NCBI GenBank assembly: GCA_021787475.1
Contig: JAJYLW010000017.1
Location: forward strand, 1 to 32,730
Reading direction: 5' to 3'
Length of the DNA stretch: 32,730 bases
Source: Actinomycetes bacterium
GTDB lineage: Bacteria; Actinomycetota; Thermoleophilia; BMS3ABIN01
Position numbers and translations under genes: made by a program. The notes under the pieces were generated by a model. It made no database searches. It was not told the origin of the DNA and saw only the letters and a list, made by a program, of their open reading frames with translations. This document shows, piece by piece, positions 10,474-20,701 of the stretch (within the stretch, counting starts at the first letter, position 1; each line of letters opens with the position of its first letter).

Positions 10474-10510
10474 ATCTTAACGAAGCACGCGTGCGCAAAC
10501 CGAAAATAAA

Positions 10511-10533
10511 GGCCCTCGATTGAGGGCCTTTTT
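10511..10533 (+). terminator. Intrinsic terminator, probably bidirectional
   Basis: Perfect 7-bp stem GGCCCTC/GAGGGCC with a four-base loop, followed by TTTTT on the plus strand. On the minus strand the same stem is followed by TTTATTTT (complement of 10503-10510). It therefore ends both cold-shock gene 1 and the converging sulfur cluster. Confidence 0.9.
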
Positions 10534-10577: not shown

Positions 10578-10751
10578 TTACCAGGTGTAAACCTGATCGC
10601 TGGCGAAAATGAGGTCGACCAGCTTGGCGTAGTCCTTGTTTTCCTTAAGCCGGAATATCGTGACCTCATTATCGGGGGCTTCCTGATCCTCGATGATCGT
10701 ATCCACGTTTCCAGTTTCGGTAAATTCCTTGATGATATGCAGTATCTTCAT
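10578..10751 (-). CDS. Short DsrH/TusB-like sulfur-relay protein (57 residues)
   Basis: This ORF is short enough to be missed by common length cutoffs. It starts at ATG (10751-10749) with GAGG five bases upstream and ends at TAA (10580-10578). The sequence begins MKILHIIKEF and ends YAKLVDLIFASDQVYTW; the terminal DLIFxxDxVxxW pattern is that of DsrH/TusB proteins, which form the heterohexameric sulfur carrier with DsrE and DsrF. It is about 40 residues shorter than typical TusB and has no cysteine, so it could only be structural. Its position as last gene after DsrE-like and DsrF-like supports the assignment. Confidence 0.72.
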   Translation of the reverse strand: MKILHIIKEFTETGNVDTIIEDQEAPDNEVTIFRLKENKDYAKLVDLIFASDQVYTW

Positions 10752-10800
10752 GACAACCTCACAATCCTGATGCGGTCATTTTTTGACATATCCCCTATCT

Positions 10801-11082
10801 TTAGTAGGGGGCAACGTGATCGTATTCAAGCAGCTTCTGAGGAACGTTCTGCATCGTCATCTGCTCGAAACCTTCATCGGCTGCATTAACTGAGTAGCGG
10901 CCGCAGTCAAGATCTCCCAGGGTCTCTACGTTAAGATCATTGTCGCCGTGATGATCGATTGGCTCACCGAGGTTGAAAACAGAAACCTCGTCGCCTTCCA
11001 GCGTCAGGCCCACAGCCATCCGCAGGGCCTCGTCCTGCCGGTCCCGGATGATAACGGCAATTTTTTTGGGATCGTCGCCCAT
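10801..11082 (-). CDS. DsrE/DsrF-like family protein
   Basis: A 93-residue protein with the DsrE-fold pattern: KKIAVIIRDRQDEALRMAVG at about 6-25 (first strand and helix) and EGDEVSVFNLG (second strand). A single cysteine occurs in GDLDCGRYS. The ATG shares its first base with the stop of the DsrE-like gene (TGATG), and the DsrH-like gene follows 49 bases downstream. By position it is the DsrF partner. Its function as a sulfur carrier is inferred from the cluster; direct proof of the catalytic cysteine is lacking. Confidence 0.8.
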   Translation of the reverse strand: MGDDPKKIAVIIRDRQDEALRMAVGLTLEGDEVSVFNLGEPIDHHGDNDLNVETLGDLDCGRYSVNAADEGFEQMTMQNVPQKLLEYDHVAPY

Positions 11083-11369
11083 CAGAACACCACCACCTTG
11101 TCGGCTTCGTGCATCATGACCGCGTTCTGGTACTGGCTCCCTGAGGTCGCGCCCTCAACATCGGAAACCTGCCGCAGTGAAGCGCTGTGCTCGCAGTATG
11201 TCAGTTGGGCCTCGCCGCTGAGCCGGTCGCACAGGTCCTGGGCCAGCAAGGTGCCGTCATCCATCATGAAAATTGTGACATCATGGCCGACCGCTTTTGC
11301 CGCCTCCGTGACGCCGACGATGTCCTCGAGGTACTTGTCAGTATTTACGAGAATTCCCAGTTTGCTCAT
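11082..11369 (-). CDS. DsrE-like sulfurtransferase subunit
   Basis: A 95-residue DsrE-family protein beginning SKLGILVNTDKYLEDIVGV and containing HDVTIFMMDDGTLLA. A cysteine at about position 66 (LTYCEHSASL) lies where DsrE/TusD carries its persulfide-forming cysteine. I chose ATG 11369 because GGAGG (11381-11377) is seven bases upstream; the longer ATG 11396 would give an unconserved extension. The region before the start contains a near-duplicate ATGGAGGTNGC pair, so the ribosome site is repeated. It has its own strong promoter at 11463-11491 besides read-through from tusA. Confidence 0.85.
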   Translation of the reverse strand: MSKLGILVNTDKYLEDIVGVTEAAKAVGHDVTIFMMDDGTLLAQDLCDRLSGEAQLTYCEHSASLRQVSDVEGATSGSQYQNAVMMHEADKVVVF

Positions 11370-11462
11370 GTGGCAACCTCCATTTGCTACCTCCATCCGG
11401 TTTTTGTTAAAAACCCACCCTCTGGCCTAGCCGCGGTTCATGTGAAGGACGTCTGGAGTGTG

Positions 11463-11491
11463 ATTATATTATTGCCGTTTGCATAAGACAA
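11463..11491 (-). promoter_or_regulatory. Internal promoter of the dsrE-F-H-like genes
   Basis: On the minus strand TTGTCT (11491-11486), 17 bases, then a consensus TATAAT (11468-11463). Transcription would start near 11456, giving a leader of about 87 bases before dsrE. This lets the three carrier genes be expressed separately from yeeE-tusA. Confidence 0.7.
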
Positions 11492-11498
11492 GAAATCA

Positions 11499-11546
11499 CA
11501 AGGCGCAGGCCCCACAGGACTTGGCTCCTGTAATTCCCGCGCCTTG
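11499..11546 (-). other. Two-level hairpin between tusA and dsrE-like gene
   Basis: An outer 8-bp stem CAAGGCGC/GCGCCTTG (11499-11506 with 11539-11546) encloses an inner 6-bp stem ACAGGA/TCCTGT (11514-11519 with 11526-11531). It lies 30 bases after the tusA stop and just upstream of the internal promoter. On the minus strand the flank is only weakly U-rich (TGATTTCTTGTC), so it may be a leaky terminator or an mRNA-stabilising processing element. Confidence 0.6.
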
Positions 11547-11575
11547 CCAGGTTCAAACCAGGAAACTGTTTGTTC

Positions 11576-11821
11576 CTATTTCTGGATCTTCAAAGCCGTG
11601 ACGCCGGCTTTTGGATTTGCCTTTTCCAGGATCGCATAACCCTTGCCGTTGCAGGCCTGGGTCACCGACTCCACTGAAGATGGATTGTCAATCAGGACAT
11701 CCAGCTCCATGCCGTCTTCCAGCTTTTCCATGCACTTGAGAGTGTAGAGTTGCGGATGCGGGCAGACATAGCCGGTTACGTCCAGCTCGTACTTGCCGTC
11801 TTCAAGCTTGTTAAACTTCAA
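11576..11821 (-). CDS. tusA: TusA/SirA/YeeD family sulfur carrier
   Basis: An 81-residue protein with the defining CPxP motif at about residues 20-23 (VTGYVCPHPQLYTLKCME). The first Cys carries sulfane sulfur as a persulfide. In E. coli the homologous YeeD sits beside the thiosulfate transporter YeeE and handles the imported sulfur; here the gene also follows a YeeE-type transporter. TTG 11821 is preceded by a full AGGAGGTGA. The gap to yeeE is 46 bases, so they are cotranscribed. Confidence 0.92.
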   Translation of the reverse strand: MKFNKLEDGKYELDVTGYVCPHPQLYTLKCMEKLEDGMELDVLIDNPSSVESVTQACNGKGYAILEKANPKAGVTALKIQK

Positions 11822-11867
11822 CCCGTTTCACCTCCTGTTTGTCACCAATGCTTTCCAGAATATTCAA

Positions 11868-13355
11868 TTACAGCTTGATATCAAAATCCATGTCATCCGA
11901 CGCCATCTTGCGGTTGGCAAAAAAGTTGATATATCTTGCCGAGATGGCGGCCCCCAAGAACAGGCCGACGAAGAAGACCCAGGCGCTGGGGTTACCGAAT
12001 GCCGCCGGCCCGTAAAAGGCGCCAATGTTGCAGCCGAGGCCGATGCGGGCGCCGATGCCCATCAGGGTGCCGCCGCCGACGGCGTAGGCCCATTGCGCCT
12101 TGGAGTGCGGGAATTTCCACTTGAACTCCCGCGCCGTCAAGGATTTAAACGCAGCTCCCAGTATCAGCCCGATGGAAAGCAGCAAGGCCGGGCTCAGCCA
12201 GGGATTGGGCAGGCCGTTATCCATGCCGAAGTAAGAGTTGTTCGACATGGAAAAGCCGATATGGCGCAGCACCCAGCCGCCAAACATGGCCTCCTGGGTG
12301 GTGATGTACCAGTAGCCGGGATCAAAGACCGTATTGTTATGCGATACATCCGGGTAAGCCGCGTGCGTTCCCGGCCAACTGGAGGGCACCGTCGGTGAAA
12401 CCTTGCTGCCATTGGGCAGCGGCGCCCCGACTGCCGGCTTTCCAGCCAGCACCTGGCCGAAGTTGGTGAAATTATAATGGTTCTGGAGCCAGGCCAGCGA
12501 GAAGATCTGGGCTCCGGCGACGATGCCGATCAGGATGGCGGCGATCGAGGTGCGGCGGGAGGCGCTAATCATTGACCAGAAGCCGGCAAGCTCATCCTTG
12601 AAACCGGTCTTGGCAGTGCCGCCATCGGCGGTGGCGCCGGCGGTGACGGCAATCTGGCGGGCGCGGCGCTTGAGGAAGGGCTTGCGCACCACGAAGATAT
12701 AAACGCCGATCAACAGCAGCAGCCCGACGAGAACCGCATTAACCAGGGTGTCCCCCACAAGATGTTGCCAGAAGGAATATTTTGCAGCGTGGTTGCCAAT
12801 GCCACCGAACAGCAACTTGGTCAAGCCAACGTCATTGAGGGTCTTGCCCTGGATGAAATGCCGGCTGAACCAGTCAAACGCAGTCGCCTGAAAGATGGCC
12901 TGGGAAAAGGCAAGCGACATGAGCACCGCGAACGAGATCATGTTGCCTTCCCCGGTCTTGTACAGGCTTCCGGTGGCGCAACCTCCGGCGAAGACCATCC
13001 CGATGCCAAATATGAGGCCGCCTAACAGTCCATGGAAGCCTATCGACTCGATGATGTACTTATCAGGATAAACCGAAACGATATATGAGTTGACAATGCT
13101 CAGCATTATCAAGCCGATGATGATGCCGACAAACATGCGCGGCACCTTGACCATGATCAGGTCGCGGAAAGCGGAGGCAAAGCAAAACCTGCCGTACTGC
13201 TGCAGGATGCCGAAAATGAAGCCGAACCACATATAGGCAATGATATAAATGTACACCGGTGCCGAAAAGTAGTACAGAACCGACAGGATCGCCACAAAGC
13301 CAAGCACGCCGATGGCGTAAATCTTATGTCTGGAACTCGCGATGGCATCCGCCAT
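11868..13355 (-). CDS. yeeE: YeeE/TsuA-type thiosulfate (sulfur) transporter
   Basis: A 495-residue polytopic membrane protein with the YeeE/YedE cysteine motifs: GRFCFASAFRD (about 55-65), GGCATGSLYKTGEG (about 123-136) and GLGCNIGAFYG (about 444-454). These cysteines relay thiosulfate across the membrane by transient hydrogen bonding in the characterised transporter. The protein is about 140 residues longer than E. coli YeeE. The extra parts are a central basic cytoplasmic linker (about 225-265) and a long polar loop rich in Pro, Asn and Tyr (about 295-375). AAGGAGG precedes ATG 13355. It is the first gene of the cluster and has a structured leader of about 265 bases. Confidence 0.93.
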   Translation of the reverse strand: MADAIASSRHKIYAIGVLGFVAILSVLYYFSAPVYIYIIAYMWFGFIFGILQQYGRFCFASAFRDLIMVKVPRMFVGIIIGLIMLSIVNSYIVSVYPDKYIIESIGFHGLLGGLIFGIGMVFAGGCATGSLYKTGEGNMISFAVLMSLAFSQAIFQATAFDWFSRHFIQGKTLNDVGLTKLLFGGIGNHAAKYSFWQHLVGDTLVNAVLVGLLLLIGVYIFVVRKPFLKRRARQIAVTAGATADGGTAKTGFKDELAGFWSMISASRRTSIAAILIGIVAGAQIFSLAWLQNHYNFTNFGQVLAGKPAVGAPLPNGSKVSPTVPSSWPGTHAAYPDVSHNNTVFDPGYWYITTQEAMFGGWVLRHIGFSMSNNSYFGMDNGLPNPWLSPALLLSIGLILGAAFKSLTAREFKWKFPHSKAQWAYAVGGGTLMGIGARIGLGCNIGAFYGPAAFGNPSAWVFFVGLFLGAAISARYINFFANRKMASDDMDFDIKL

Positions 13356-17684: not shown

Positions 17685-18986
17685 TTATGCGGCCGCCTGC
17701 CGGTCTCGCCCGGCCAGACGGCAGATGAAATAAGTGACGCCGGCGGCGATCAAGGGAGCAGCAATAACGAGCACCCTGAGGGTCGTCCTGACCGAGGCCA
17801 CCGAGTCCCGTGCTGCCACGGCAATCACGTCCTGCCCCCCGGCGATGGTAAGAACCAGGAAAAAAGTCAAGGCTGCGGCGCCGATGGAGGTGCGGACCGG
17901 GCTCAAGGCCGGCGGCTGGAGCACGTGGTGGACGCCGCGGTCGCCGGTGGCCCGCGCTTCCAGAAAAGGCCAGAAGTACAAAACACCAAAAAAGATAAGG
18001 GGCATCAAGACGCCCGGCAGGAAAATGCCGGGAACCAGATGGCCGGCGACGTGAAAGTCAAGCGACGGGAACAGGCGCAGGACTCCTTCAAGCCAGAGGA
18101 CATACCAGTCGGGCTGCGAGCCACTGGAAACCGCCGCGGCGTTAAAGGGGCCGTAAAGCCAGATTGGGTTTATCTGAACCAGCCCCGCGAGCGCCGCCAG
18201 GGCGGCAAACACGAAAAAGAAAAGCCCGAGCGACTTGGCGGCGTAAGTCGGCCAGAGCCTCGATCCTACGATCGACTCGTTGGAACGGCCCGGTCCGGGG
18301 CAGTTGGTGTGCTTCTGGCGGACAAGCACCAGCAGGTGCAAAGACACCAGGCCCAGAATCAGGAACGGCACGACAATGTGCATCCCGTAAAGCCGGGAAA
18401 TTGTCACCTGCGAAGGCGCATTGCCGCCAAAGAAAATAAAAGCAAGCCAGTCCCCGATAAACGGGATCGACAGCATCACGGAATAGGCTATCCTGAGGCC
18501 GGTCCCGGAGAGCAGGTCGTCGGGAACGGAATAGCCGGTGAAGCCGTTGAACATCCCCAGCAGCAACAGGGTCAGGCCGATGATCCAGTTGATCTCGCGC
18601 GGACGCCGGAAGGCTCCGGTAAAAAAGATTCGCATCAAATGAATGGCAACGGCGCCAATAAACACCAGGGCCGCCCAGTGATGAATCTGGCGCACGAGCA
18701 GGCCGGCGGGAACGTCGAAGCTGATGTTGAGCGTCGATTGATAAGCGGCTGACATTTCCACGCCTTTGAGCGCCTGATAAGAGCCTTCATAAACAGTTTT
18801 TGTCTCGCTGGCGTTAAAGAACATCGCCAGGAAGATGCCGGTGCCCACCAGAATGATGAGTGAGAAAAGCGCTATCTCGCCCAGCATGAACGACCAGTGA
18901 TCCGGGAAGACCTTGTTGATCGTCAGCCGCGTCAACGAAGCGGCGCCAAGGCGGTCGTCAAACCAGCGCGCCAGCCGCGAGATCAT
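17685..18986 (-). CDS. qcrB: Cytochrome bc complex, cytochrome b subunit (QcrB type)
   Basis: A 433-residue membrane protein oxidising quinol in the bc complex. The heme ligand pairs have the correct 14-residue spacing: His102 and His116 (RQIHHWAALVFIGAVAIHL), and His203 and His217 (LYGMHIVVPFLILGLVSLHL). The quinol-site PEWY motif appears as PDWY at 292-295, as in many actinobacteria. The N-terminal and C-terminal domains are fused into one chain. The start overlaps the Rieske stop by four bases (ATGA). The final 60 residues form an additional hydrophobic helix region and a basic tail. Confidence 0.95.
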   Translation of the reverse strand: MISRLARWFDDRLGAASLTRLTINKVFPDHWSFMLGEIALFSLIILVGTGIFLAMFFNASETKTVYEGSYQALKGVEMSAAYQSTLNISFDVPAGLLVRQIHHWAALVFIGAVAIHLMRIFFTGAFRRPREINWIIGLTLLLLGMFNGFTGYSVPDDLLSGTGLRIAYSVMLSIPFIGDWLAFIFFGGNAPSQVTISRLYGMHIVVPFLILGLVSLHLLVLVRQKHTNCPGPGRSNESIVGSRLWPTYAAKSLGLFFFVFAALAALAGLVQINPIWLYGPFNAAAVSSGSQPDWYVLWLEGVLRLFPSLDFHVAGHLVPGIFLPGVLMPLIFFGVLYFWPFLEARATGDRGVHHVLQPPALSPVRTSIGAAALTFFLVLTIAGGQDVIAVAARDSVASVRTTLRVLVIAAPLIAAGVTYFICRLAGRDRQAAA

Positions 18987-19852
18987 GATCTTAAGCTCCA
19001 GAAGCCGGGGCCGGGGTGGCTGGAAAAATCACCCCGGGCTCTGAGGAATCCCTGCTGATCCACATAGAGGGGCAGCTGTGGCAGAGGCCTCCCGGCGGGG
19101 CCGCCCACCGGCACGGCGCCCCTAAGGATGTCAAAGGAGGACTGGTGACACGGGCAGAGCAGGATATTGACGTTCTTCTCGTACTGGGCTACAGGGCAGC
19201 CGGCATGAGTGCAGATCTTGGAAAAAGCGATAAACCCCATCGGCGTCCAGCTTTCCCTTCCGGGGGGCAGCCTTAGCTTTGCCTCATCAACGCGAAGCAG
19301 GAGCGTCTGCGAGGTGATCGAGTCCGTTTCGCCCTCGGGAAACACTGTCAGGATGTCACCGGGCTGAACGGCTGCAGTTACCGGGCGGCCGTCAAAAGTT
19401 ACCAGGCGGGCGCCTTTTGTCCATGCAGTCTGGTAAAGGACCGGCAGCGGGCTTTTTCCCATTGAGCGCAGCAAGGAGACCGAGTCAAGGGCCAGCAGCC
19501 CCATAACGCCACCGGCCAGCAGCCCCAGCAGCCGGCGGCGGCCGATTCGGTGCTCACCGGAAACAAAGCTCTCCCGAAACTGTTCCTTTTCCTCGTCGCT
19601 CGATGGCAGCGGCTCGCGCTTGCTGCTCACTTCCTCATCGGGCATCAGTCCGTGCGACCAGACAACGAGGCCGGCGCCCATGCCCGCCATGGCCAGGGCG
19701 AGCGACACTCCCATGCCAGCGGTGCCCCCGTCAGTCCAGTAGAAATAAAAGAAGGCGGCGGCCCCGGCCAGCCCGGCCAGGAACGCGAGCGCCGCTGCTA
19801 CCAGCGCCGACAGGCGGCGGGACGTTCCTCTATCCCCGGAGTCCCGACTCAT
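18983..19852 (-). CDS. qcrA: Rieske iron-sulfur subunit (QcrA type)
   Basis: A 289-residue protein with three predicted membrane helices (about 15-38, 45-66 and 107-126), the first two being the extra pair typical of actinobacterial QcrA. The 2Fe-2S ligands are in CTHAGC (214-219) and CPCHQSS (233-239). RRR before the third helix (105-107) could serve as a twin-arginine-like signal. It passes electrons from quinol to the cytochrome c subunit. It overlaps qcrC and qcrB by four bases each, so all three are coupled. Confidence 0.95.
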   Translation of the reverse strand: MSRDSGDRGTSRRLSALVAAALAFLAGLAGAAAFFYFYWTDGGTAGMGVSLALAMAGMGAGLVVWSHGLMPDEEVSSKREPLPSSDEEKEQFRESFVSGEHRIGRRRLLGLLAGGVMGLLALDSVSLLRSMGKSPLPVLYQTAWTKGARLVTFDGRPVTAAVQPGDILTVFPEGETDSITSQTLLLRVDEAKLRLPPGRESWTPMGFIAFSKICTHAGCPVAQYEKNVNILLCPCHQSSFDILRGAVPVGGPAGRPLPQLPLYVDQQGFLRARGDFSSHPGPGFWSLRS

Positions 19853-20601
19853 CCCCGTCCCCTTCTTTCAATCCAGACAGTGACCAGGAGCAGCACCGCC
19901 AGCGCTCCTGCCCCCGCCAGCGCCTCGGTTACCGGTCCCCGGTAGCCGAGCGGCTGCCCGCCCGGATGGTCCGGCTCTTTCAGTGTTTCGACGAAATCGA
20001 CAAGCGAAGCCAGATCGTGCTGATCGACGATCGCTTTCGAAAAAGAAGGCATCGGACCGGGTCCGAAGATGATGGCCGTGGCGACCTCGGCGGGCGAAAA
20101 ACCGGTCAGCGCCGGCGCATTGAGGCCGACGCTCACCAGGGCGCCGCCGCGGCCGGTTGCGCCGTGGCAGCCAGCGCAGTCAAGCCGGTAGAGGCTGCCG
20201 CCCCGGCTGAGAGTGCCGCCGGCAAGCGAAATCGTGCTGGTGCTGGCGATATATTCCGCCACTGCCCCTATTTCCGCACCGGAAAGCCTGGCGGCGAAGC
20301 TGGGCATTGGCCCTTTGCCCGATCTGACGACCCGCTCAACCAGCGACGAATCGTTTACCGCTTTTAGTGTGGGCCCAATTTCCGTGCCGCTCGCGTCCGG
20401 CCCGTGGCAGCCGGCGCAGTTTTCCTTGAAAATGAGGGCGCCCGGCGATGCCGGCTCAGCAGCGTCATCCCGCCGGGCTGATGATGCAGCAGTGAGTCCG
20501 GAGCCGGCGCTTAAGGCCCGGTCCGCTCGCCCTGCCGCGGCGATGGCGGCAATGATAATCGCGGCCAGAAGAATGATTATGACACGCCTGCGGTCTGGCA
20601 T
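19849..20601 (-). CDS. qcrC: Diheme cytochrome c subunit (QcrC type)
   Basis: A 250-residue membrane-bound cytochrome with an N-terminal signal/anchor (about 5-24), two c-type heme sites CAGCH at 62-66 and 142-146, two GPMPSF segments supplying axial methionines, and a C-terminal membrane helix (about 225-245). Fused diheme cytochrome c is the actinobacterial replacement for a monoheme c1 plus soluble c. I chose ATG 20601 because it places a normal signal sequence at the N-terminus; an in-frame ATG at 20679 is possible, and neither has a strong ribosome site. No cytochrome oxidase genes are in the window. Confidence 0.92.
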   Translation of the reverse strand: MPDRRRVIIILLAAIIIAAIAAAGRADRALSAGSGLTAASSARRDDAAEPASPGALIFKENCAGCHGPDASGTEIGPTLKAVNDSSLVERVVRSGKGPMPSFAARLSGAEIGAVAEYIASTSTISLAGGTLSRGGSLYRLDCAGCHGATGRGGALVSVGLNAPALTGFSPAEVATAIIFGPGPMPSFSKAIVDQHDLASLVDFVETLKEPDHPGGQPLGYRGPVTEALAGAGALAVLLLVTVWIERRGRG

Positions 20602-20657
20602 CGGCGCTTCTTTATTCAGGCTAAGCCGAAAAAGCAGGCCAATATGCATCCACCCCG

Positions 20658-20701
20658 CCGTGTTCCTTTTGCATCGCAAAAAAGGAAGGCTTCAAACACG
20701 G
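20658..20701 (-). terminator. Long hairpin at the end of the DUF488 gene
   Basis: CCGTGTT/AACACGG (20658-20664 with 20695-20701) plus an inner TTCCTTTT/AAAAGGAA (20663-20670 with 20680-20687) overlaps the last codons and stop of the DUF488 gene on the minus strand. It lies upstream of qcrC and could terminate or attenuate transcription entering the qcr operon. Confidence 0.5.

Follow-up and report, generated by a model that had tools for sequence, protein, structure and literature searches.

Where does the sulfur go once a YeeE-type transporter has taken it up? The question is raised by five genes, yeeE, tusA, dsrE, dsrF and dsrH, arranged head to tail at positions 10578-13355 (minus strand) of contig JAJYLW010000017.1 from an Actinomycetes bacterium of the class Thermoleophilia. 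The whole stretch analysed, 32,730 nucleotides long, is called the window. An earlier note on this DNA had proposed that the cluster imports thiosulfate and relays its sulfur to a DsrEFH-like complex, and had left the final acceptor open. Our analysis places the cluster among the yeeE-tusA-dsrEFH type II (YTD) loci: yeeE/yedE, tusA and three small dsrEFH type II genes are syntenic, the DsrE cysteine is conserved, dsrAB co-occurs, and the set is distinct from type I. By homology, and by analogy with characterized proteins, YeeE probably imports sulfane sulfur, which would be relayed from TusA to DsrEFH type II, then to DsrC and finally to DsrAB (probability about 0.72).

DsrC and two sets of DsrAB are encoded elsewhere in the genome

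That no dsrAB genes lie nearby is true of the window, but the genome does contain them. Host contig C12 carries two dsrAB sets and a DsrC (C12:27704-28021) ending ...ACKIAGLPKPTGCV, in which both functional C-terminal cysteines are present. The question of the missing acceptor is thereby closed. The order on C12 starts with dsrC, a DsrK-like gene, a 115-amino-acid open reading frame with haem-binding-like motifs, dsrA1 and dsrB1. These are followed by an 81-amino-acid open reading frame at the place of dsrD, for which NCBIfam and Pfam gave no match, and by a DsrL-like gene, dsrA2, dsrB2 and a second DsrL-like gene. The series ends with type I dsrE, dsrF and dsrH, which pass the models TIGR03012, TIGR03010 and TIGR03011, respectively. 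The DsrA tree put dsrA1 among Nitrospirota and Desulfobacterota and dsrA2 among Proteobacteria, with full support. Long branches meet at that point, so the position of dsrA2 taken by itself falls short of strict proof. This topology suggests that set 1 belongs to the reductive side of the tree and set 2 to the oxidative side. Another contig, C15, carries sat, aprBA and qmoABC-like genes. The family of the host possesses a full complement of genes for sulfate reduction.

YeeE was used to search 149 relatives, of which 130 lie outside the host's own family (hereafter the family), and all 18 matches came from the family. DsrA likewise exceeded its cut-off in 18/149, only in the family, and in 0/130 of the others. 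The sole family genome without a YeeE match (G014) is a draft assembly of about 200 contigs. In a wider sample, DsrA was over the cut-off in 40 of 48 genomes bearing the cluster YeeE and in none of 14 controls. Type I DsrF was over its cut-off in 19/19 family genomes, so both relay types occur regularly in the family; the count in other cluster-bearing genomes was 9/44.

The five-gene order is conserved

Features of the locus are as follows, all on the minus strand.

11868-13355, minus: yeeE/yedE-like membrane transporter, 495 amino acids (Pfam Sulf_transp, 138 bits)
11576-11821, minus: tusA sulfur carrier, 81 amino acids, CPHP motif (Cys20), TTG start behind AGGAGGTG (Pfam TusA, 59 bits)
11498-11547, minus: terminator-like hairpin in the tusA/dsrE gap (z = -4.1 against shuffles, paired changes)
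11462-11491, minus: promoter-like block TTGTCT-N17-TATAAT, core TTG-N17-TAATATAATC, upstream of dsrE (18/18 family genomes)
11366-11383, minus: candidate five-codon leader open reading frame (MEVAT*) in a tandem ribosome-binding region, its stop overlapping the dsrE start (ATGA)
11082-11369, minus: dsrE type II, 95 amino acids, active-site Cys59 (cysteine conservation, profile match to type I DsrE)
10801-11082, minus: dsrF type II, 93 amino acids, its start overlapping the dsrE stop (conserved in 37 sequences)
10578-10751, minus: dsrH type II, 57 amino acids, no cysteine (length conserved among homologues)
10508-10531, minus: predicted terminator-like hairpin between convergent dsrH and a cold-shock gene

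The five open reading frames are real genes, since the same five occur in the same order at all 18 family loci with yeeE, down to about 50-57% YeeE identity. At two of these loci yeeE is broken off by the contig end. What the earlier note observed at this locus is confirmed.

A wider scan yielded 79 named loci, the nearest in metagenome-assembled genomes (MAGs) of Actinobacteria/Thermoleophilia (B_ACT_02, 92%), which makes the host an uncultured representative of this group. Using profiles seeded with the window proteins, homologues of both DsrE and DsrH were detected near the YeeE-TusA pair in 41/66 non-family loci. Gene orders outside the family differ (F-E-H, F-H-E) in Nitrospirota, Rokubacteria, Proteobacteria and Desulfobulbaceae. 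At locus L082, from Desulfobulbaceae, the same profiles pick up all of E, F and H, and at L110 they pick up F and H. An E-F-H set is found in a genome of the Desulfobulbaceae, the group to which the experimentally tested cable-bacterial proteins belong.

Archaeal loci (L062-L068 and L070; Hydrothermarchaeota, Pyrohabitans) have the YeeE-TusA pair with no E, F or H within the fetched DNA. Several non-actinobacterial loci (L072:3334-11669, L069, L090, L111, L062, L067) have a wider gene neighbourhood in common along with the cluster. It comprises a membrane protein of about 580 amino acids that is PMT_2-like and bears a DDNRLTSWQWVF motif, a universal stress protein, FAD amine-oxidase-like and B12-binding radical-SAM proteins and, in some, a rhodanese-domain protein.

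YeeE and TusA

YeeE and TusA exceeded their Pfam cut-offs (138 and 59 bits), and their NCBIfam matches (YedE/FdhT, TsuA, YedF, TusA) were all below cut-off. Alignment with TsuA of S. thermophila (6leo) places its three cysteines at Cys58, Cys126 and Cys442 of YeeE, all of which are invariant in 12 family members. The enlarged middle region of YeeE, described previously as an enlarged loop, is present and is common to YeeE proteins of the cluster, which in most loci are roughly 450-510 amino acids long; it is a family trait and not a peculiarity of the host locus. The CPxP sulfur carrier is indeed a TusA with a CPHP motif, and C20, P21 and P23 are invariant.

DsrE, DsrF and DsrH

The DsrE of the window scored 22.5 bits in Pfam against a cut-off of 22.7, i.e. 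0.2 bits short. Cys59, within the motif CEHSA/CDHSA, is invariant in 41 sequences. The best PDB match of the DsrE profile was A. vinosum DsrE (2hy5_A, E = 0.0027), in which Cys59 falls on Cys78. Profile comparison with the type I DsrE of the host gave 97.9% (3.7e-13) and again placed Cys59 on the catalytic Cys78. In the DsrE tree type I and type II separate with 97/95 support, although type I is represented by just three rows and includes one long branch. The earlier note put the active cysteine near position 66. The conserved residue is Cys59, which becomes Cys68 if dsrE is read as 104 amino acids from an upstream ATG; the 95-amino-acid reading starting at 11369 is favoured because GGAGG lies just upstream and relatives agree.

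The window set does not qualify as DsrEFH type I, as none of the NCBIfam models TIGR03012, TIGR03010 and TIGR03011 matched its DsrE, DsrF or DsrH, whereas the type I dsrEFH set of the host passes all three. Pfam and NCBIfam searches as a whole returned no match for DsrF or DsrH. Comparison of the two profiles with the type I subunits of the host gave none for DsrF and a weak one for DsrH. DsrF is confidently modelled as an alpha/beta fold (predicted local distance difference test score, pLDDT, 92.9). A fold search with it gave no significant match; by TM-score, 2pd2 ties for best among the matches listed (TM 0.61, E 0.15). This structure is ST0148, which we take to be a DsrE-like protein. DsrH is modelled as a beta-alpha-beta-alpha-beta unit (pLDDT 81.7), also with no significant match in the fold search. 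Its 57 residues without cysteine had been pointed out in the earlier note, and the description is correct. In 48 aligned homologues across phyla, DsrH is 55-58 amino acids long and usually free of cysteine, so its size at the host locus is normal and a family trait.

The earlier note had staked the cluster on profile matches of the small proteins and on their company with yeeE. DsrF and DsrH miss the DsrF and DsrH profiles, as is known for type II, while throughout the family the small proteins occur together with yeeE. Both 2026 papers see the same sequence dissimilarity of F and H and bridge it with predicted structures compared with 2HY5 (PMC13293266, and PMC13047784 in BMC Genomics). The DsrF and DsrH labels used here rest on synteny and on those published comparisons.

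A proposed route for sulfur and the evidence for and against it

In the proposed route YeeE would pass a sulfane-sulfur species, either polysulfide or the sulfur of thiosulfate, through its three-cysteine channel. Cys20 of TusA would accept the sulfur as a persulfide; from there it would move to Cys59 in the DsrE subunit of a DsrEFH heterotrimer, which would persulfidate DsrC. DsrC in turn would supply DsrAB, where the sulfur would be oxidised to sulfite, and AprAB and Sat would carry the oxidation on to sulfate. The substrate, the direction in vivo and the DsrAB served are the parts of this best explanation that we infer. The interpretation given in the earlier note is supported in part. The relay portion agrees with the sequence tests above and with the biochemistry of cable-bacterial homologues: according to PMC13293266, transfer from TusA to DsrE type II and from DsrEFH type II to DsrC occurs in vitro, and the transfer residue of DsrE type II is Cys67, which was examined with a mutant. 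The substrate named in the earlier note fares less well. Neither TusA nor DsrEFH type II nor DsrC of cable bacteria was persulfidated by thiosulfate, and the published proposal is polysulfide (PMC13293266). By this analogy thiosulfate is just one candidate substrate, and thiosulfate import by the host cluster a candidate activity.

Several observations weigh against a relay that ends in DsrC and DsrAB. The cluster and the dsr genes sit on different contigs. In the host it is type I dsrEFH that adjoins the oxidative-side dsrAB, and since the host has this set as well, what a second relay would contribute is not evident. Finally, DsrF and DsrH are without sequence support as DsrF and DsrH and have no significant fold match.

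We wondered whether the cluster might serve sulfur disproportionation instead, with thiosulfate or elemental sulfur being split into sulfide, formed via reductive DsrAB, and sulfate. YTD was originally put forward as a marker of disproportionation, and in Desulfolithobacter the YTD proteins reach higher abundance during disproportionation than during sulfate reduction (PMC13047784); the host also has a reductive dsrAB set and sat-apr-qmo. However, as reported in PMC13293266, only 25/63 known disproportionators have dsrEFH type II, and many sulfate reducers that do not disproportionate carry it. Disproportionation is considered possible but doubtful. A relay that delivers sulfur to biosynthesis or to a pathway of the sHdr/LbpA type, rather than to DsrC and DsrAB, appears very unlikely. 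Contig C15 does carry a third DsrEFH-like set (L028:352-2263, about 96351-98262; Pfam DsrE, DsrE, DsrH) followed by TusA and a GcvH/LbpA-like protein, near genes for a lipoate ligase, a radical-SAM protein and a 688-amino-acid membrane CCG protein. On the same contig (L026:9993-13615) a DsrE_2/DsrE3-like gene adjoins another TusA, and a second GcvH/LbpA-like gene and a short DsrE-like open reading frame lie nearby. But these DsrEFH-like and DsrE3-like sets own separate TusA partners, and there is no full sHdr set because the host genome has only three CCG-domain proteins (DsrK, the 688-amino-acid membrane fusion and a 344-amino-acid protein).

The remaining alternatives treat YeeE and TusA as a pair from another pathway. 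YeeE-TusA could take up thiosulfate for assimilation, as a TsuA-TsuB pair to which the DsrE-like proteins would be accessories, given the family match and the three TsuA cysteines conserved in YeeE. We judge this quite improbable: the scores are far below the NCBIfam TsuA and TsuB cut-offs (102.7 against 400 bits and 22.5 against 147.5 bits), YeeE is confined to dsr-bearing genomes among the wider kin of the host, and relay subunits are present. Least probable of all is a selenium uptake pair of the YedE-YedF type beside which dsrEFH would be an unrelated neighbour. YedE/FdhT and YedF are the top NCBIfam matches and the host SelD has an in-frame TGA, yet the scores fall far short of the curated cut-offs (134 against 350 bits and 50 against 79 bits), SelD over cut-off is lacking in 11/44 other cluster-bearing genomes, and the YeeE-TusA pair tracks dsrEFH and dsrAB-bearing genomes rather than selD.

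As a separate matter, selD (G000:C16:35112-36044) reads through one in-frame TGA in the host and in 16 family members, which suggests that their SelD contains selenocysteine and that they have a selenoprotein trait.

Transcription units and neighbouring genes

Although all five genes point in one direction, as the earlier note stated, a single transcript is unlikely, since a hairpin and a promoter-like block separate tusA from dsrE. The gap is 206 nucleotides long. Its strong hairpin (z = -4.1 against shuffles) is at nearly the same place in relatives, shows changes on both sides in 8/12 counted pairs (12 genomes), and pairs 98.5% of alignment cells against at most 59% with the arms slid. Beyond it, TTG-N17-TAATATAATC occurs at equal spacing in 18/18 family genomes. 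Because the hairpin with compensatory changes is followed by this conserved block, yeeE-tusA and dsrEFH probably form separate transcription units, two in all; transcription of yeeE-tusA would end at least partly at the hairpin, and dsrEFH would be under its own promoter. No known RNA element was matched by Rfam between tusA and dsrE. The promoter-like block is the sole perfect match in the host genome. A sulfur regulon sharing it was considered and rejected, since other matches (2-3 mismatches) were no commoner than in the reversed control. In the leader (11366-11461) of all 18 family genomes, ATGG(A/G)GGT stands exactly 14 nucleotides ahead of the dsrE ATG, and translational control by the five-codon open reading frame before dsrE is possible.

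The cluster has unrelated neighbours, namely a cold-shock gene convergent with dsrH and, on the yeeE side, a divergent gene for an S41 peptidase. Further along the window (17685-20679, minus strand) is a set of cytochrome b, Rieske and two-domain cytochrome c genes. This set encodes a bc-type complex that could move quinone electrons to or from the sulfur pathway.

Comparison with known systems

The TsuA-TsuB (YeeE-YeeD) systems of S. thermophila and E. coli, and SoxT1, belong to the same transporter family and share the three channel cysteines and a TusA-like partner. The window YeeE differs in its length (495 against 330-350 amino acids), in scoring far below the TsuA cut-off and in its linkage to dsrEFH. 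DsrEFH type I of Allochromatium vinosum (2HY5) shares DsrE homology, the cysteine position and presumed donation to DsrC. In contrast, the window subunits are shorter (95/93/57 amino acids) and do not lie beside dsrAB, and F and H cannot be aligned by profile even with the type I subunits of the host itself.

The family has been described before. It includes the Thermoleophilia MAGs ACT_02/ACT_11 (PMC9326234) and the Gaiellales SURF_19 (PMC7596348, PMC10591310). Those papers report that a single genome holds both a reductive and an oxidative dsrAB, with type I dsrEFH beside the oxidative dsrAB, and the arrangement in the host agrees with these reports. The yeeE-tusA-dsrEFH type II locus was found here in ACT_02/ACT_11 and SURF_19; the available portions of their published descriptions make no mention of it. 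Nor does the literature on the family, in its available portions and supplements aside, discuss type I and type II relays paired with reductive and oxidative DsrAB within a single genome.

Published YTD clusters (PMC13047784) resemble the host locus most closely: five genes with a YeeE-TusA pair, a DsrE with a single conserved catalytic cysteine, short F and H proteins missed by DsrF and DsrH profiles, and co-occurrence with dsrAB. The cluster, its cysteine, its function in vitro and its presence in Actinomycetota are already published (PMC13293266). Published hidden Markov models for type II have a cut-off of 80 bits, and three subtypes have been published. A 2026 proposal takes DsrEFH type II as a sign that a sulfate reducer can oxidise sulfur. 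The tusA and dsrEFH genes of E. aureum belong to a single operon (PMC13293266), whereas in the host a terminator-like hairpin and a promoter-like block lie between them. The host further differs from known YTD systems in being actinobacterial and in holding type I dsrEFH and two dsrAB sets as well. It is tempting, if somewhat unlikely to be correct, to suppose that the type I relay works with the oxidative-side DsrAB-DsrL and the type II relay with YeeE-TusA import under its own conserved promoter; a choice of relay set by transcription would then help decide whether DsrC feeds oxidative or reductive DsrAB. Both relay types and both DsrAB types in one genome make the organism a useful test case for the choice of sulfur direction. 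Expression data could therefore test which relay matches which direction, and metatranscriptomes of the organism's genus exist (PMC9326234).

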